Assembly (NCBI GenBank): GCA_945863035.1
Contig: CAMAZH010000012.1
Location: 1 to 48,368, forward strand
Direction of reading: 5' to 3'
DNA: 48,368 nucleotides
Source of the DNA: Chitinophaga pinensis
GTDB lineage: Bacteria; Bacteroidota; Bacteroidia; Bacteroidales; GCA-2748055
In this document: positions 1-8,840 of the stretch, piece by piece
Layout: the number at the start of each line of letters is the position of its first letter
How positions within the stretch are numbered: position 1 is the first letter of the stretch
The notes under the pieces: model-generated
Seen by the model: only the letters and a program-made list of their open reading frames with translations
What the model was told of the DNA's origin: nothing
Database searches by the model: none
Translations under genes and position numbers: made by a program

Positions 1-866
1 AGTTCGGTCATCTCCCCCGTTTTGATATTTATGGTATTCTGGGCCAGCGATATACTGCTCGTGGGTTTTACGGCAACTCTGAAAACAATGTCGTTTCCGT
101 TGGATATACCGCCGTTTATTCCCCCGGCATGGTTGGTTTGGGTTTTCCCTTCGGGGGATACAAACAAGTCGTTATGCTCACTGCCTTTCATTTTCACCGA
201 TGCAAACCCGGCTCCAAACTCAATGGCTTTAATGGCTGGGATGCTGAAAGCAATATGTGCAATCAGGGATTCAACCGAATTGAAAAAAGGCTCACCCAGT
301 CCTGCCGGAATTTCGCTTGCCGTGCATTCAACAATTCCCCCGATGGAATTCTGTTGCTCAATGGCCATATCCACAGCTTTCCCGATATCTTTCATTCCCC
401 CGGCTTCAGTGAGTTCTGCTTTTATTTTAACGGGGGAGATAATCTTTCGGGCTATTACGCCTGCCGCAACCAGTCCCAGAGTAAGCCTGCCGCTGAAATG
501 TCCGCCGCCGCGGAAATCCTCATAACCGCCAAACTTTTTGAATGCAACAAAATCGGCATGTCCGGGTCGGGGTGTCTCCCGTAATTTCTCATAATCTTTA
601 AAACGTGTATTCGTATTCTCAAAAAGAATTGTGATGGGGGCTCCTGTTGTGGAATCGTTAAAAACCCCACTCATGAACCTGGGTAAATCGGCTTCTTTGC
701 GCGGGGTGGTGCCTTTTGAACCACTTCGCCTTCGATTAAGGTCGGGCGTGAAATCGGATTCGAGCAAAGGCACCCCGGCCGGACAACCATCAATTGTTAC
801 CCCGGTGGAGTTCCCGTGCGATTCGCCAAAAATACTTACCCTGAAATGGGTTCCGAAACTATTCAT
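1..866 (-). CDS. aroC: chorismate synthase, 3' end cut off by the window
   Basis: Chorismate synthase converts 5-enolpyruvylshikimate-3-phosphate to chorismate using reduced FMN, the last shikimate-pathway step, in the cytosol. The 288 visible residues start MNSFGTHFRVSIFGESHG and contain the family motifs GESHG, a basic DLNRRRSGSKG stretch, RPGHAD and FRGGGHFSGR. Bacterial AroC is usually about 350-360 residues, so roughly the last 60-70 (including the RHDPC-type motif) lie beyond the left edge. The ATG at 866-864 lies two bases after the aroD stop codon, so the gene is translationally close-coupled in the pheA operon. Frames open on the plus strand here are shadows. Identity is secure from motifs; only the C-terminus is unseen. 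Confidence 0.96.
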   Translation of the reverse strand, partial: MNSFGTHFRVSIFGESHGNSTGVTIDGCPAGVPLLESDFTPDLNRRRSGSKGTTPRKEADLPRFMSGVFNDSTTGAPITILFENTNTRFKDYEKLRETPRPGHADFVAFKKFGGYEDFRGGGHFSGRLTLGLVAAGVIARKIISPVKIKAELTEAGGMKDIGKAVDMAIEQQNSIGGIVECTASEIPAGLGEPFFNSVESLIAHIAFSIPAIKAIEFGAGFASVKMKGSEHNDLFVSPEGKTQTNHAGGINGGISNGNDIVFRVAVKPTSSISLAQNTINIKTGEMTE

Positions 867-868
867 CT

Positions 869-1501
869 CTATTGAATTTTTTTGATAATATCCCCCATCT
901 GGTCGTAACTCAACTGACCTTCTGCAGTAGCATCGCCCTCCCCTGCCGATGCAAAGGTGAACTCGGCACCCAGCAGAGTGGCCGCAACCCGCGTAATCTT
1001 ACCCATCTTTCCCATTCCAAGAACTACCTTGCGTCCCGAAATAGTATAAAGAGAAAGAAGTCTGGCCGAATCGGCCGGCGAATAAACCCTGCAGGCCAAT
1101 TTGGCCACATCGGCACCAGCCAGAAAGCAATCGTTCAAAAGGGATTCCAGAGTTTCTGAGGCAGGTGTGAGTTCATAATTATGGTATGATATAATGAGTT
1201 CAGTTGCGGATTGCCCGATAATCTTCCTCACTGAATCGAGAAAGGATGCTTCTGAATCCACTTCAACATCAATATACTTAGCTCCCGAAGCAGCTGCCAT
1301 CTCAAAAAGCGCAAGCCTTTCATCGTCCATAAATTTCCCGGGTCTGCAGGTAAAAACAGTCTTGCCACCCGAAAGAATCACTTCCCGGTATTCCTCAGGT
1401 TTCCAATTAAGAAGATCCGCCCTGAGTTCAATGAATCCTGATTTCCGCAATACTTTTTTTGCTTCTGCAGGACTCCCGTTTCCAAAACTAACGCAAATCA
1501 T
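869..1501 (-). CDS. aroD: type I 3-dehydroquinate dehydratase
   Basis: Dehydrates 3-dehydroquinate to 3-dehydroshikimate through a Schiff base. The 210-residue protein is the type I (class I aldolase-like) form: ELRAD at 25-29 and TCR at 51-53 bind substrate, H107 in SYHNY is the general acid/base, K134 in AKLA is the expected Schiff-base lysine, R171 in MGKITR and Q196 in AEGQL close the site. It is slightly shorter than the enteric enzyme (about 250) but all catalytic positions seem present. The start overlaps the end of aroB by 14 bases. Many bacteria use the unrelated type II enzyme (AroQ); this one clearly does not belong there. Confidence 0.95.
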   Translation of the reverse strand: MICVSFGNGSPAEAKKVLRKSGFIELRADLLNWKPEEYREVILSGGKTVFTCRPGKFMDDERLALFEMAAASGAKYIDVEVDSEASFLDSVRKIIGQSATELIISYHNYELTPASETLESLLNDCFLAGADVAKLACRVYSPADSARLLSLYTISGRKVVLGMGKMGKITRVAATLLGAEFTFASAGEGDATAEGQLSYDQMGDIIKKIQ

Positions 1502-2516
1502 AGAGCATTGATTTAAGATCGTTTACAGGTAATTTTTGTATAAGAGCTTTCCCTATGTCTTCAAGGAGAATAAAACTAATCTCCCCCCCTGCTCTTTTCT
1601 TGTCTTTTTTCATTGCCTCCGCCAGTAAATCAGGATCATATTCAAGCTGCACCGGCAACCCGCTTCTTTTTATGAGGTTTTCGAGTTCGACGGCTTTGGA
1701 GGCTTCAAGCAAACCAAGGTTAACAGAAAGCCGCGATGCAAGAATCATTCCAAGGGCAACCGCTTCGCCATGAGGTACTTTATAGAGCTTCTCGAAGGCA
1801 TGGGCAAAAGTATGACCAAAGTTAAGGGTTTTTCGCTCACCAATTTCATTTTCATCCCCATGAACCACTTCAATTTTGTTCCGTACCGACTCATATATCA
1901 TCCTTTCAAGCACCAACAAATCTTTGGCTATCCCCTTTTCAATGTTCTGATCGAGGTAGATAAAGAATTCCCTGTCGCGGATAGCCCCGTATTTTATGAT
2001 CTCGGCAAATCCCCCGAGAAATTCCCTTTCTGGCAGGGTAGAAAGGCTATCCACATCGCAGTAAACAAAATCCGGCTGGCGGATTATCCCAACCATGTTT
2101 TTATATCCATCGAGGTTCACGCCGTTTTTGCCACCTATAGCGGCATCGACTTGTCCCAGAAGGGTTGTGGAGACGAATCCGAACGGGATACCCCTGAGGA
2201 ATGTAGAGGCAACAAATCCCGACAAATCGGTAGCAATCCCTCCGCCTGCGCCAATCAACGACCAGCTACGATCGACTTCCATTTCAAGGAGCTTGTGGTA
2301 AAGCACAACGGCCTGATCCATCGATTTGGCCTTTTCTCCCGAACCAATTGAAATTACGGGAAATCCGGCAAATTTAGCGGAGTGGAAATGCAGCAGGTTT
2401 TCATCGGCCATCACAACGGTTTTGCTTTTGGTAAAGCTGGAAATCGCAGTGCCTATATCTCCCCCGATAAAAACCTCGCTTTTACCGCCTGAAGTTACCA
2501 ACTCAAGCTTTTTCAT
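1488..2516 (-). CDS. aroB: 3-dehydroquinate synthase
   Basis: Cyclises DAHP to 3-dehydroquinate using NAD+ and a divalent metal, the second shikimate step. The 342 residues carry the NAD-binding GAGGGIATDLSG (89-100), the STTLLGQVDAAIGGKNGVN block (116-134), and the metal-ligand regions FAEIIKYG (E172), GHTFAHAFE (H235/H239) and PHGE (H249). Length fits the family. Its ATG overlaps the stop codon of the upstream DAHP synthase gene as ATGA, and its 3' end overlaps aroD by 14 bases, so it sits inside a translationally coupled operon. Confidence 0.96.
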   Translation of the reverse strand: MKKLELVTSGGKSEVFIGGDIGTAISSFTKSKTVVMADENLLHFHSAKFAGFPVISIGSGEKAKSMDQAVVLYHKLLEMEVDRSWSLIGAGGGIATDLSGFVASTFLRGIPFGFVSTTLLGQVDAAIGGKNGVNLDGYKNMVGIIRQPDFVYCDVDSLSTLPEREFLGGFAEIIKYGAIRDREFFIYLDQNIEKGIAKDLLVLERMIYESVRNKIEVVHGDENEIGERKTLNFGHTFAHAFEKLYKVPHGEAVALGMILASRLSVNLGLLEASKAVELENLIKRSGLPVQLEYDPDLLAEAMKKDKKRAGGEISFILLEDIGKALIQKLPVNDLKSMLYDLR

Positions 2517-3610
2517 TTTGCATCTTCCTGTTTGCGGTTCATTACCACCGTTTGCTTATTGATGGATTCCTGATGGATGGCCTGGAATACCTTCAGGATA
2601 AACTCTTCGCTGAGACCTTTTCTGCTGCCGAGGTTTATGCGGTTTCTCACAATATCGTCCCATCGTTGCGATTGCAGGATCGTGATATTGTTGTCTTTCT
2701 TGTGCTTTCCGATTTCTTCAACAACCTTCATTCTTTTTTCGAAAATCTGTATCAGTTTGTCATCAAGCTTATCGATCTGCTCCCGGAGTTCAGCCAGACT
2801 CAGCATTGCGTTAAGGTCGCCCTCGTCTCTGAATACGAGTCTTTTAAGAAGCGTATGCAGCTCTGCAGGCGTGATTTGCTGTTTTGCGTCGCTCCATGCC
2901 TCATCGGGGCTTATGTGTGTCTCGATGATCAAACCGTCGAAGTTCAAGTCCATTGCTTTTTGAGAAATATCATAGAGCATATGACGGTTTCCACAGATAT
3001 GGCTGGGGTCGTTGATAATTTTCAGCTCCGGGATCCTGCGGCGCAGTTCGATAGGCACCTGCCATTGTGGGTCGTTCCTGAAAAGGGATTTGTCATACAC
3101 TGAGAAACCGCGGTGTATTGCAACAAGCTTCTTCAATCCCGAATTGTTAAGGCGTTCGAGTGCCCCGATCCAAAGTTCAATATCAGGGTTGACGGGGTTT
3201 TTAACCATTACGGTGATATCCACACCTTTGAGCGCATCGGCGATATCCTGCACGGCGAAAGGATTTGCGGTTGTGCGCGCACCGATCCATAGTATGTCAA
3301 CGCCCGACTTCAGGCATTCCTCAACATGCTTTACCGTGGCAACCTCAGTGGTGATGAGCATGCCCGTTTCTTCTTTCACCTTGCGCAACCATTCCAGACC
3401 GATGGATCCGATACCCTCAAAGGCATTTGGGCGTGTGCGGGGCTTCCATATCCCCGCCCGGTAAATATTGATTCCCCGTGAATGCAGTTCCCTGGCCGTA
3501 GCCAGAACTTGTTCTTCGGTTTCAGCGCTGCAAGGACCCGCAATGATGATGGGCCTTTTCATGCACTCGCCACAAAGTGCGAGAGGTTCAAGATCGAGTT
3601 TGATTCCCAT
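2513..3610 (-). CDS. bifunctional DAHP synthase / chorismate mutase type II
   Basis: A fusion of two enzymes at opposite ends of the chorismate pathway. Residues about 18-262 form a short, KDSA-like (type I-beta) DAHP synthase: GPCSAE at 25-30, YRAGIWKPRTRP at 50-61, KNPVNPDIELW, INDPSH with the metal-binding His near 204, and IIETH at 228-232. Residues about 272-352 form an AroQ-type helical chorismate mutase (LAELREQIDKLDDKLIQIFEKRM, then GKHKK). The domain order (DAHPS then CM) is the one usual in Bacteroidota. The CM part probably also serves as the prephenate source for the adjacent PheA, and in related fusions it mediates feedback inhibition (family knowledge, not visible here). M1 is followed by M17; I kept M1 because relatives have a similar short N-terminal extension. 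Ends in an ATGA overlap with aroB. Confidence 0.93.
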   Translation of the reverse strand: MGIKLDLEPLALCGECMKRPIIIAGPCSAETEEQVLATARELHSRGINIYRAGIWKPRTRPNAFEGIGSIGLEWLRKVKEETGMLITTEVATVKHVEECLKSGVDILWIGARTTANPFAVQDIADALKGVDITVMVKNPVNPDIELWIGALERLNNSGLKKLVAIHRGFSVYDKSLFRNDPQWQVPIELRRRIPELKIINDPSHICGNRHMLYDISQKAMDLNFDGLIIETHISPDEAWSDAKQQITPAELHTLLKRLVFRDEGDLNAMLSLAELREQIDKLDDKLIQIFEKRMKVVEEIGKHKKDNNITILQSQRWDDIVRNRINLGSRKGLSEEFILKVFQAIHQESINKQTVVMNRKQEDAK

Positions 3611-3621
3611 AATTGTAGTTA

Positions 3622-4485
3622 TTATTCCATTATTGATTTTCCTTTGATATATTCCCCCAAGACTCCCAATTCACTGGTGAACGGACGAATTGCGTCGAGG
3701 GATTTCCTGTACCAGTCGTAATCGTCAAAAATCACATCCACATAAAACTGGTACTCCCAATCTTTTCCCATGATCGGAAGGGATTGGATTTTCGAAAGGT
3801 TGATGTCGTAATACGACAGGATAGAGAGTATTTTTGAAAGCGAGCCTGATTTGTGAGCAAGGGCGAAATGTAAAGATGCCTTATTAACTATGGAATTGTC
3901 CGTTTGGTCACCATTCGTTTCTTTGAGGATGAGGAACCGGGTGTAGTTCATTTTATTGGTTTCTATACCTGGTGCAAGAATTTCGAGCCCGTATTTTTCT
4001 GCAGCAAGATCACTTGCGATGGCGCCTTTGCCGATGAGTTTGCCCTCCTGAAGCATTTTTGCGCTAAGGGCCGTATCGATGCTCTCGATAAGAGTGATAT
4101 GCGGGTAATTGTCGAAAAAAAGCTGGCATTGAAGAATTGCCATGGGATGCGAATACACTTCCTTAAGGTCTTCGATCTTCTGTCCCTTTAAAGCCACCAG
4201 ATTCTGGCGAATCCTCAGGTAAATCTCTCCCACGATATGCATTTTGGAATCCTTTATCAAGGCGTAATTGGGGATAATACTCCCGGCCAGAGAGTTCTCA
4301 ATTGCCATGATGCCATAATCTACTTCCCGCTGGGTAAGCGATGTAATGAGATCTTTAAAAGTATTGTTAGGCTTTATGTCAATCTCCAAAGGCTCGAAAT
4401 ATGCCTTGGCCGCAATTTCATGAAACGCTCCGTACCCGCCCTGAATGGCAATTGTGATCGGTTTGATTTCTGAGTTTTCTTCCAT
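3622..4485 (-). CDS. pheA: prephenate dehydratase with C-terminal ACT domain
   Basis: Decarboxylates and dehydrates prephenate to phenylpyruvate, the committed step to phenylalanine. Of the 287 residues, about 10-190 form the periplasmic-binding-protein-like catalytic part, with IAIQGGYGAFHEIAA, NSLAGSI, SHPMAILQC and the catalytic T182-R183-F184. Residues about 204-280 form the regulatory ACT domain (SGSLSKIL, LSKIQSLPI), expected to bind Phe. No chorismate mutase domain is fused to it; that activity is in the next gene. An in-frame ATG at 4545 is possible, but its extra 20 residues precede the family N-terminus and lie almost directly after the terminator hairpin at 4549-4579, so I start at 4485. 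First gene of the operon, 11 bases before DAHPS-CM; controlled by the tandem leader described separately. Confidence 0.94.
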   Translation of the reverse strand: MEENSEIKPITIAIQGGYGAFHEIAAKAYFEPLEIDIKPNNTFKDLITSLTQREVDYGIMAIENSLAGSIIPNYALIKDSKMHIVGEIYLRIRQNLVALKGQKIEDLKEVYSHPMAILQCQLFFDNYPHITLIESIDTALSAKMLQEGKLIGKGAIASDLAAEKYGLEILAPGIETNKMNYTRFLILKETNGDQTDNSIVNKASLHFALAHKSGSLSKILSILSYYDINLSKIQSLPIMGKDWEYQFYVDVIFDDYDWYRKSLDAIRPFTSELGVLGEYIKGKSIME

Positions 4486-4548
4486 AATAATAATTAATAA
4501 AAAGATTTCGACCTGAAGCTCCCTTGTTTTGAGAAACTGAAACAAATT

Positions 4549-4579
4549 AAAAAAGGCCCCGTGTCGACCGGGACCTTTT
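4549..4579 (-). terminator. attenuator terminator 2, upstream of pheA
   Basis: On the minus strand, GGTCCCG (4575-4569) pairs with CGGGGCC (4561-4555) around a 7-base loop, with AAAA (4579-4576) facing the T tract. Six T follow (4554-4549). It sits 63 bases before the pheA ATG and inside the transcript, so it looks like a conditional, not a gene-end, terminator. The 5' arm can alternatively pair with 4621-4614 (8 pairs, one G-U), just after leader peptide 2. Confidence 0.82.
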
Positions 4580-4621
4580 ATATGATTTTCTCTGCTCTGA
4601 AACCCATACGTTATCCCGGCC
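4566..4621 (-). promoter_or_regulatory. candidate antiterminator 2
   Basis: Minus-strand GGCCGGGA (4621-4614), starting two bases after the leader-2 stop codon, complements TCCCGGTC (4573-4566), which includes most of the 5' arm of terminator 2. The two pairings cannot coexist. A ribosome stalled on the Phe/Tyr run of leader 2 would leave this region free to form; a ribosome reaching the stop codon would cover 4621-4614 and allow the terminator. Pairing is seen in the sequence; the mechanism is inferred. Confidence 0.68.
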
Positions 4622-4623
4622 TG

Positions 4624-4689
4624 TTAATTCAGACTAAAATAAAAGTAATAAAAGAAGAATCCAGCAGGTATGTGTTTGAATCTGTCCAT
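4624..4689 (-). CDS. Phe/Tyr-rich leader peptide 2
   Basis: A 21-codon minus-strand frame from ATG 4689-4687 to TAA 4626-4624. It begins MDRFKHIPAG and then has the run FFFYYFYF at residues 11-18, ending SLN. Six of 21 residues are Phe and three Tyr; there is no Trp. The start lies directly after the T tract of terminator 1, the stop directly before antiterminator arm 2. No clear Shine-Dalgarno is seen, which is normal for this phylum. It repeats the design of leader 1 without being a close sequence copy. Function is regulatory by inference: translation speed over Phe/Tyr codons should decide folding of the RNA downstream. Confidence 0.75.
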   Translation of the reverse strand: MDRFKHIPAGFFFYYFYFSLN

Positions 4690-4692
4690 GTT

Positions 4693-4723
4693 AAAAATAA
4701 AAAATCCCGATAAACACCGGGAT
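4693..4723 (-). terminator. attenuator terminator 1
   Basis: Minus-strand ATCCCG (4723-4718) pairs with CGGGAT (4709-4704) across an 8-base loop, followed by TTTTTATTTTT (4703-4693). It lies between leader peptides 1 and 2. The 5' arm is also an exact complement of 4747-4742, immediately after the leader-1 stop codon, so the hairpin is mutually exclusive with that pairing. Confidence 0.8.
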
Positions 4724-4747
4724 CAATTGATATAAAAGTTTATCCCG
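4718..4747 (-). promoter_or_regulatory. candidate antiterminator 1
   Basis: Minus-strand CGGGAT (4747-4742), two bases after the leader-1 stop codon, is a perfect complement of ATCCCG (4723-4718), the 5' arm of terminator 1. The stem encloses 18 bases. It forms the same 1:2 against 2:3 choice as in the second leader. Short (6 pairs), so the thermodynamic balance needs a folding calculation. Confidence 0.65.
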
Positions 4748-4749
4748 AC

Positions 4750-4800
4750 TTATTTCAGCTTGCTATAAAAATAGAAATATGTAAAAGTAAAGCGGGTCAT
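4750..4800 (-). CDS. Phe/Tyr-rich leader peptide 1
   Basis: A 16-residue peptide, MTRFTFTYFYFYSKLK, read from ATG 4800-4798 to TAA 4752-4750. Four Phe and three Tyr fall within residues 4-12. It starts about a dozen bases after the predicted transcription start and its stop codon precedes antiterminator arm 1 by two bases. This is the classic arrangement of a ribosome-mediated attenuation leader for an aromatic amino acid operon; the operon makes chorismate (needed for Phe and Tyr) and phenylpyruvate. Composition and position are seen; regulation is inferred. Confidence 0.78.
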   Translation of the reverse strand: MTRFTFTYFYFYSKLK

Positions 4801-4817: not shown

Positions 4818-4848
4818 CAAAGTAAATCAATTTGCTTAATATATGCAA
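4818..4848 (-). promoter_or_regulatory. promoter of the pheA operon leader
   Basis: Minus-strand TTACTTTG (4825-4818) is a one-mismatch match to the Bacteroidota -7 element TAnnTTTG, with TTG (4848-4846) 20 bases upstream as a -33 element. Transcription would start near 4812, putting the leader-1 ATG very close to the 5' end. Confidence 0.55.
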
Positions 4849-4997: not shown

Positions 4998-5642
4998 ATG
5001 AGCAATAAAGAGTTATTCCACAAAACGATTACCTGGTTTCAGGAAAACATGCCAATTGCAGAGACAGAGTTGCATTACTCGAATACCTTTCAGTTGCTTG
5101 TTGCCGTTATCCTGTCGGCCCAATGCACCGATAAAAGGGTAAATATCATAAGCCCGCCGTTTTTCGATCGTTTCCCGGATCCTCAAACTCTGGCGGCTTC
5201 GTCGGTTGAGGAAATTTTCTCCTATATTAAAACATGCTCCTATCCCAATAACAAAGCTAAAAACCTGTGGGGTATGGCGAATAGTCTGGTGAGTGATTTC
5301 GGGGGAGTGGTACCGGACGAGCCGGAGCAACTTCAAAAATTGCCCGGAGTTGGCCGTAAGACAGCAAACGTCATTCTTTCGGTTGCCTTCAATAAGCCAG
5401 CGCTTGCGGTGGATACTCATGTCTTCAGGGTTGCGGCCAGAATAGGACTTTCGGTAAACGCAAAAACCCCGCTTGAGACGGAAAGACAATTGGTGAAGTA
5501 TATTCCCGAAGAACTTCTGAGTGTGGCCCACCACTGGCTTATTCTTCATGGGCGATACACATGCATCGCTCGCAAACCGAAATGTTTGGAATGCGGTTTG
5601 AGGGAATTCTGCCAATATGCTTCACGAGCAGTAAACCAATGA
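4998..5642 (+). CDS. nth: endonuclease III (DNA glycosylase / AP lyase)
   Basis: Removes oxidised pyrimidines and cleaves at abasic sites in base excision repair. The 214 residues match the usual length (about 211). The helix-hairpin-helix LPGVGRKTA spans 115-123 with catalytic K121, and D139 in VDTHV is the conserved aspartate. The 4Fe-4S cluster loop is complete: C189, C196, C199 and C205 give the expected C-x6-C-x2-C-x5-C. ATG at 4998 gives the family N-terminus. Single-gene unit divergent from the pheA operon. Confidence 0.97.
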   Translation: MSNKELFHKTITWFQENMPIAETELHYSNTFQLLVAVILSAQCTDKRVNIISPPFFDRFPDPQTLAASSVEEIFSYIKTCSYPNNKAKNLWGMANSLVSDFGGVVPDEPEQLQKLPGVGRKTANVILSVAFNKPALAVDTHVFRVAARIGLSVNAKTPLETERQLVKYIPEELLSVAHHWLILHGRYTCIARKPKCLECGLREFCQYASRAVNQ

Positions 5643-6632: not shown

Positions 6633-8840
6633 ATGCAAGCAGTATACCTGGATTATAATTCCACGACCCCAATTGACAAGGAAGTGGCTGATTTTATGAT
6701 CCCTTTTCTTCGCGGTCATTTTGGAAACCCATCAAGCACTCATGTTTATGGGGTTGAAAGCAAGATCGCCATTGAAAATGCGCGGAAAAGTCTCGCCGCC
6801 TTGCTCAACTGTTCTTCTTCTGAAATAATATTTACCAGCGGGGGTACCGAATCCAACAATTTCGCCATTAAAGGAGCCGCCCGGGCCAATCGCGACAAAG
6901 GCAATCATATTATTACCACCAACATAGAACATCCTGCTGTTCTTGAGGTATGCCGGTCGCTTGAAAACGAAGGCTTTGAAGTCAGCTACCTGCCAGTTAA
7001 CAAGGAAGGAATACTCGAAACAGAAACCCTGAAAAATGCCATTAGGGCCGAAACCATCCTGATTTCTGTGATGCATGCCAACAATGAGACTGGCACTATA
7101 CAAAACATCGCTGACCTCTCTTCGCTTGCCAGGGAACACCAAATCATTTTCCATTCCGATGCCGCACAGTCGGTTGGGAAAATCAAAACGGATGTTCGGG
7201 AATTGGGAGTGGATCTGCTATCGGTTGCTGCACACAAATTTTATGGCCCAAAGGGTATCGGTGCACTTTTTATTCGCGAGGGAGTCAACCTGAACAAAAT
7301 CATGCACGGGGCCAACCATGAGCACAACCTCCGTCCGGGAACTGAAAATGTTCTTGAAATTGCCGGTCTGGGTAAAGCAGCGGAAGTGGCCCTCCGCGAT
7401 TTCAACCGCAATTTCGGGAACATGCAACAAACGCGCGATTTGCTCTACCAAATTTTAAAAGCGGAAATTCCGTCAATTGTCCGTAACGGTCACCATGAGC
7501 AGGTTTTACCGAACACATTGAACATAAGTTTTCCGGGAATGGATGCCGGAGCCTTGCTGTCAGAGCTGGTTGAAGTTGCAGCCTCAGCCGGAGCAGCCTG
7601 TCATGCCGATGACGTAGAAATATCCTATGTTTTGCAAGCCCTGAAAATACCGATCGAAATTGCAATGGGAACCATCCGCTTTTCCACTGGAAAAAACACT
7701 TCGCAAAAAGAGATCACCGACGCTGCATCCCACATCGCATCCCGGGCAAAAAAGTTGATGAGCAATGCCATGGATTCGTCGCTTCCGCAAGTCAAAGCCG
7801 ACCAGATCAAATTAACTCATTTTACCCATGGGCTGGGATGTGCCTGCAAAATCAGTCCAAGAATCCTGGAAGAAATCCTTCGGGGAATTCCCTCCCCGAT
7901 TCACCCGGATATCCTCGTTGGTTCTGAAACGTCGGATGATGCTGCGGTTTACAGAATAAATGATGAGACAGCCCTCGTGCAAACGGTCGATTTCTTCACC
8001 CCGGTTATCGACGACCCATTTGAATTTGGGGCAATTGCAGCCGCAAACGCGCTAAGCGATATTTATGCAATGGGGGCAAAACCGCTTTTTGCGCTCAATA
8101 TTGTTGCCTTCCCGGTTAACAGGCTGCCAACCCAAACATTGCGGGATATCCTCAACGGCGCCCAATCCGTCGCCGACGAAGCTGGCATTTATATTCTCGG
8201 GGGACACACCATAGAAGACAATGAGCCGAAATTCGGTATGGTTATCAGCGGTTTGGTTCATCCCTCGAAAATACTCAGGAATTCGACCTGCAAGCCGGGT
8301 GACAAACTTATTCTTACCAAACCCTTGGGTACAGGAATCCTCAGCACCGCTCTGAAGAGAAACATGATTAGTGGCCAAGTAGAGAGAGAACTTTATCAGA
8401 CCATGAGAAAGCTCAACAAACAAGATGCTGAAATCATGGTGAAATACCGGGTTAATGCCTGTACCGACATAACGGGTTTCGGACTCTTAGGACACATGAA
8501 GGAAATGCTGGAGTCTGCAAATGTTTCGGCCGAGCTGAATGCCTCTTGCATTCCCCATTTAACAGGAGCACTTGATCTGGCCTCACAAGGGATAATCCCG
8601 GGTGGAACATCCAACAACATTAGCTTCACTTCCGGAATCGTGCGTTTTTCGGGAGAGATTAGTAAGGCAATGCAGGTATTACTTGCAGATGCTCAAACTT
8701 CCGGCGGGCTTCTTATTTCAGTCGATCCTGCTGATGCGGAGGCCTTGCTTGATGAAATAACATCATCGGGCAACCGTTTCGCAAGCGAAATCGGGAGGAT
8801 TATGACAAGGAATAGTTCACTTGTTTATGTAATCAATTAA
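6633..8840 (+). CDS. selD: cysteine desulfurase / selenocysteine lyase-like domain fused to selenide, water dikinase
   Basis: A 735-residue two-domain protein. Residues 1-375 are a class V PLP enzyme of the NifS type: GGTESNN (70-76), EHPAV with H100, HANNETG (148-154), D176 in HSDAAQ, PLP lysine K202 in AAHKFYGPKG, and C323 in SAGAACHAD as persulfide/selenide carrier. Residues about 392-735 are full-length SelD (E. coli protein is 347), with LTHFTHGLGCACKIS: C403 matches catalytic Cys17, C405 and K406 follow. SelD makes selenophosphate from selenide and ATP; the NifS part would release selenium from selenocysteine and hand it over within one chain. The catalytic residue is Cys, not selenocysteine. 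No selA, selB, ybbB or yqeBC homologue is in the window, so whether selenophosphate feeds Sec, selenouridine or a molybdoenzyme cofactor cannot be told. Uninterrupted frame, so not an assembly join. Confidence 0.93.
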   Translation: MQAVYLDYNSTTPIDKEVADFMIPFLRGHFGNPSSTHVYGVESKIAIENARKSLAALLNCSSSEIIFTSGGTESNNFAIKGAARANRDKGNHIITTNIEHPAVLEVCRSLENEGFEVSYLPVNKEGILETETLKNAIRAETILISVMHANNETGTIQNIADLSSLAREHQIIFHSDAAQSVGKIKTDVRELGVDLLSVAAHKFYGPKGIGALFIREGVNLNKIMHGANHEHNLRPGTENVLEIAGLGKAAEVALRDFNRNFGNMQQTRDLLYQILKAEIPSIVRNGHHEQVLPNTLNISFPGMDAGALLSELVEVAASAGAACHADDVEISYVLQALKIPIEIAMGTIRFSTGKNTSQKEITDAASHIASRAKKLMSNAMDSSLPQVKADQIKLTHFTHGLGCACKISPRILEEILRGIPSPIHPDILVGSETSDDAAVYRINDETALVQTVDFFTPVIDDPFEFGAIAAANALSDIYAMGAKPLFALNIVAFPVNRLPTQTLRDILNGAQSVADEAGIYILGGHTIEDNEPKFGMVISGLVHPSKILRNSTCKPGDKLILTKPLGTGILSTALKRNMISGQVERELYQTMRKLNKQDAEIMVKYRVNACTDITGFGLLGHMKEMLESANVSAELNASCIPHLTGALDLASQGIIPGGTSNNISFTSGIVRFSGEISKAMQVLLADAQTSGGLLISVDPADAEALLDEITSSGNRFASEIGRIMTRNSSLVYVIN

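Follow-up and report, generated by a model that had tools for sequence, protein, structure and literature searches.

Two probable Phe/Tyr leader-peptide attenuators in series upstream of the pheA operon of a Bacteroidales genome

In this study, a stretch of DNA of 48,368 nucleotides (the window) was found to contain two complete leader-peptide attenuators in series on its minus strand (4800-4551). Direct reading of the sequence shows that a short ORF rich in Phe and Tyr opens each unit and is followed by an antiterminator arm and then by an intrinsic terminator. Leader-peptide attenuation is a classical mechanism, and we consider it likely, with a probability of roughly 0.83, that the two units are ribosome-mediated transcription attenuators acting in series on one transcript. 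Tandem Phe/Tyr leader-peptide attenuators ahead of the pheA operon, as the original prediction had it, are the best reading of this region, on which anatomy, conservation and arm complementarity agree.

The first unit opens with leader peptide 1 (4750..4800, minus strand, as for all features of the two units), which has 16 residues, MTRFTFTYFYFYSKLK, with its ATG at 4800 and its stop codon ending at 4750. Antiterminator arm 1 (GTCGGGAT, 4742..4749) follows, and its CGGGAT begins 2 nt past the stop codon; its pairing amounts to 8 pairs (GTCGGGAT) if two G-U pairs are counted. Terminator 1 (T1) with its U tract occupies 4691..4724 and reads GATCCCGGTGTTTATCGGGATT plus a T tract, the stem lying at 4724-4703. 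The gap from T1 to leader 2 is about 14 nt in the window. Leader peptide 2 (4624..4689) has 21 residues, MDRFKHIPAGFFFYYFYFSLN, with its ATG at 4689 and its stop codon ending at 4624, and antiterminator arm 2 (GCCGGGAT, 4613..4620; 8 pairs including two G-U) begins 3 nt past this stop. Terminator 2 (T2) with its U tract occupies 4542..4579 and reads AAAAGGTCCCGGTCGACACGGGGCCTTTT plus a T tract (4579-4551). The predicted hairpin energies, -10.9 kcal/mol for T1 and -17.1 kcal/mol for T2, make T1 the weaker of the two. When the fold is computed with the T2 3' arm absent, a nested hairpin (4580..4609) appears inside the antiterminator-2 loop, and it is predicted to shorten this loop and bring arm 2 beside terminator 2. 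The order originally described on the minus strand (leader 1, arm, terminator, leader 2, arm, terminator, pheA) and the 21 residues given for leader 2 therefore needed small corrections only: arms starting 2 bases after the stop codon were right for unit 1 and wrong for unit 2, and the complementarity claimed between the arms and the terminator 5' arms holds with 8 pairs per unit, two G-U included in each. An intrinsic terminator is present between the leader ORF and the first structural gene, and the leaders appear to be short ORFs enriched in codons for the pathway products, from their residue composition (F 24%, Y 17%) and from the codon pattern in relatives. When the 48 kb window was searched on both strands, with 21 residue groups, for leader, arm and terminator together, this pair of units was all that came up apart from one weak serine match.

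A promoter-like site precedes unit 1 (4818..4848, minus strand), with TTG at 4848-4846 and TTACTTTG at 4825-4818. Of the 6 positions that the Bacteroidota -7 motif (TAnnTTTG) specifies, the latter element matches 5, and owing to this one mismatch the site is assigned with moderate confidence. Within at most 70 nt ahead of the start codon, TAnnTTTG was present at 97/145 single units, 17/30 first units and 0/30 second units, the background being 17/525. Since the motif lies ahead of single and first units and of none of the 30 second units, both terminators are probably on one transcript, and one promoter-like site probably serves both units of the window, with no promoter between them.

The operon downstream, all on the minus strand, starts with pheA (prephenate dehydratase, 3622..4485; Pfam PF00800), followed by a DAHP synthase fused to chorismate mutase (2513..3610; PF00793 and PF01817), aroB (3-dehydroquinate synthase, 1488..2516; PF01761/PF24621) and aroD (type I 3-dehydroquinase, 869..1501; PF01487). 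These Pfam matches agree with the fused DAHPS-CM/shikimate operon that the attenuators were said to precede. The last ORF (3..866), which runs off the window, has in its translation a chorismate-synthase-like start, GTHFRVSIFGESHG, and is presumably aroC-like from its FGESHG motif. The neighbour at 4998, an endonuclease III homologue, is divergent from the attenuators, so neither T1 nor T2 ends an upstream gene. Elsewhere in the window, a 735-aa ORF on the plus strand (6633-8840) combines, by Pfam, a cysteine-desulfurase-like class-V aminotransferase domain with an AIR-synthase-type N/C pair of the selenophosphate-synthetase kind, which we take to be a NifS-SelD fusion.

In the mechanism that we infer, RNA polymerase would start shortly before leader 1, and the charging of Phe- and Tyr-tRNA would be sensed by the translating ribosome. 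When both are well charged, the ribosome would reach the stop codon and cover the adjoining arm, the terminator would form and transcription would end. When charging is low, the ribosome would stall in the F/Y run and leave the arm free, and the free arm would pair with the terminator 5' arm and let the polymerase pass. A polymerase past unit 1 would face the same test at unit 2; expression of the operon would need both escapes, the readthroughs would multiply, and two units may reduce basal expression and make the range wider and steeper than it would be with one.

The computed folds are consistent with such a switch. When a ribosome footprint was masked within the F/Y run, arm and terminator paired (about -8 and -20 kcal/mol) at the stage at which the 3' arm had still to be synthesised; moving the mask to the stop codon abolished this pairing. 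The pairings are mutually exclusive by computation and are placed such that ribosome position would decide between them. In every full-length MFE structure the terminator is present, which means that switching has to be kinetic and co-transcriptional. Both arms did better than shuffles of their own spacers (0/300 for unit 1 and 0.017 for unit 2). For units chosen blind to the arm, 85% of 209 had p<=0.05, and observed against swapped arms gave p = 2e-38. In 198/205 units, at least 5 bases of the terminator 5' arm can pair with the antiterminator arm as well as with the 3' arm, covering 122 different core segments, a count in which the arms had been selected for pairing. Among 20 family relatives, leader columns -10 to -5 vary almost only between F and Y or synonymously and adjacent columns vary freely; the spacing between F/Y run and arm varies little (median 11 nt, 5-95% 7-16). 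It is very improbable that the short ORFs act otherwise, by re-initiation of translation, by Rho or by a leader peptide working in trans, and that the hairpins are incidental. A trans-acting attenuator peptide is described elsewhere, namely peTrpL (PMC7298713), but in our units the peptide sequence is poorly conserved outside the F/Y run and each arm shows complementarity to the terminator of the same unit.

The occurrence of the design was followed in pheA homologues drawn from named genome contigs and from samples of relatives and of the family, order and phylum, whose upstream DNA was retrieved and searched with three versions of a unit detector (strict, relaxed and a final one with ViennaRNA terminators). 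The strict detector found a unit in 95/147 distinct Bacteroidales-set loci, with 0/147 in reverse complements and 0/735 in Markov shuffles, and the relaxed one in 133/147 (21 tandem), with 0/147 and 0/1470, respectively. In the final search at least one unit was present in 139/147 distinct Bacteroidales-set pheA upstream regions, 27 of them tandem, and a unit was present in 36/67 (3 tandem) of a set from other orders and classes; these final counts are used, with the controls belonging to the two earlier versions, because those versions overlooked terminators with bulges and arms that lie inside the 3' end of the leader. On inspection, two further loci (L121 and L129) have a second F/Y leader. 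Single units are also seen by the final detector at pheA in other orders of the class, and the tandem arrangement recurs in about 20 family groups. No unit was found in 18 rows that branch together outside the main group of the pheA tree. A leader-peptide attenuator is thus near-universal at pheA among the Bacteroidales sampled, and both the F/Y frames and the alternating stems, whose lack of conservation would have spoken against the prediction, are conserved in relatives. Chance AT-rich ORFs rich in TTT/TAT codons beside ordinary terminators can hardly account for this. F and Y codons are indeed common in AT-rich DNA, but the control sequences of the same regions gave no match with the two earlier detectors and the design recurs in relatives; the early judgement that chance is very unlikely is borne out by the 48 kb scan, the spacer shuffles and this recurrence together.

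Two other explanations accept attenuation and differ on what the units do. It is unlikely, though the best of the alternatives, that regulation comes from the pheA-proximal unit 2 alone and that unit 1 is a relic or a weak constitutive terminator which does no more than lower expression. The lower predicted stability of T1 fits it, as does L121, where the unit-1 hairpin stands without a U tract and units can therefore decay. Against it, only unit 1 is preceded by a promoter-like site, and L169 and L170 lack the unit-2 type and retain the unit-1 type. Moreover, in the congener L002 leader 1 is identical, and leader 1 to T1, arm 1 included, is without substitution over about 107 nt, whereas the leader-2 N-terminus and the pheA 5' UTR diverge; the two genomes are close. 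Leader 2 of L002 retains FFFYYFYF, its N-terminal part being changed. Somewhat less likely still is that the units sense different things, one mainly Tyr and the other mainly Phe, or different thresholds, as an AND of two amino acids. Both leaders hold both residues and the operon feeds both products, which would suit such a gate, but the window units are both mixed in F/Y, and the Tyr fraction does not clearly separate first from second units in 30 tandem loci (F131/Y109 vs F150/Y103, Wilcoxon p = 0.10). As first and second units are alike in their Phe/Tyr codons, a series gate for the same signal is preferred over separate Phe and Tyr sensors, and the earlier suggestion of Phe and Tyr charging being sensed at two thresholds finds no unit difference in codon content behind it.

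The number of units is labile. Counted on a quick pheA tree with 214 rows, tandem and single states replace each other at least 17 times, or at least 16 times with L121 and L129 scored tandem (32 tandem, 143 single), the counts being approximate because the tree comes from a short search on 170 columns and has many weak branches. These 16 changes were counted against the series-attenuator explanation, and the second unit is dispensable, a single one being enough for most relatives. Operon content showed no link with unit number, the same pheA-DAHPS/CM-aroB-aroD order being found with one or two units. In f60, f88, f78, f68 and f96, unit similarity places first units closest to first units and second units mostly closest to second units, which suggests an old tandem across them. 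Because first units resemble first and second resemble second within clades, most pairs are not recent copies, L161 being the only possible one. Recent local duplication in the window was rejected, since the similarity score of unit 1 with unit 2 is 0.56 and each of them scores higher with its best match at another locus. At L121, about -304 to -190 before pheA, unit 1 retains leader and hairpin and has lost the U tract; it is apparently a decaying first attenuator. On balance, we lean slightly towards same-signal attenuators in series being a recurrent pheA design in Bacteroidia, gained or lost many times and retained as a gate of multiplicative type, with a sharper response to Phe/Tyr-tRNA charging. 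If so, the contribution of a second checkpoint of the same kind could be examined on naturally occurring examples. With many natural single/tandem pairs, even inside one family, it may be asked whether a second like attenuator steepens the response or cuts leakage or noise.

An Rfam search of the window gave no family above threshold. The top-scoring sub-threshold match at the site, lying over unit 2, was the E. coli-type pheA leader (RF01859, Phe_leader; 23 bits, E 0.13, cut-off 55), a score that leaves the site outside this family. The two share a short Phe-rich leader ORF, alternative antiterminator and terminator, and a Phe pathway target; in contrast, the window units mix Phe and Tyr codons, are two in series and belong to Bacteroidota, and their arm sits at the stop codon, without a clear conserved protector stem. 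In the open literature no same-signal tandem leader-peptide attenuators were found, an earlier mention being possible, for example in Lopatovskaya et al. 2010 (Mol Biol 44:128; cited in PMC4833913), which reportedly surveys attenuation of amino-acid operons in bacteria.

In the same phylum and at the same gene, a study of the F. psychrophilum transcriptome reported that pheA of Flavobacteriaceae is preceded by a structured 5' element, and it noted leader-peptide clues ahead of operons for amino-acid biosynthesis; the main text of that paper carries no mention of a tandem attenuator (PMC9723704). With these elements already reported there, as far as that text goes only the tandem arrangement appears new. 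The original view of a tandem undescribed in Bacteroidota is kept in so far as no description was found, but the arrangement recurs beyond this genome and a structured pheA element was on record. The nearest parallel with two attenuators and short ORFs in one leader mRNA is Salmonella mgtCBR, called singular by its paper, in which mgtM and mgtP respond to ATP and proline, independently and additively (PMC3641672). The mgtCBR signals differ, whereas the pheA units share design and codon content and precede a biosynthetic operon. Tandem riboswitches, such as B. clausii metE as cited in PMC3641672, also place serial terminators on one leader, but they are ligand-binding RNAs for two different ligands, and the pheA units would rely on a translating ribosome. 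Two same-signal attenuators in series before a biosynthetic operon thus appear to be a new arrangement of a known mechanism.

Leaders at other amino-acid operons were also examined. A thr leader search gave nothing convincing. Single Ile/Leu/Val leader attenuators (e.g. MKKSFAHIIINILVLVVLVVVKI) stand ahead of ilvD in the window genome, where the operon carries just one, built on the same plan (L299, position 1244), and in the majority of the relatives inspected (loci L289-L315). The idea that these genomes use tandem units generally was rejected, as no ilvD locus has more than one convincing leader and those found at his are single. One weaker his leader candidate only (L260) was seen in the window's own family, and His-rich leaders with arm and terminator lie upstream of hisG in other families of the order (L252, L254, L262, L266 and L244).
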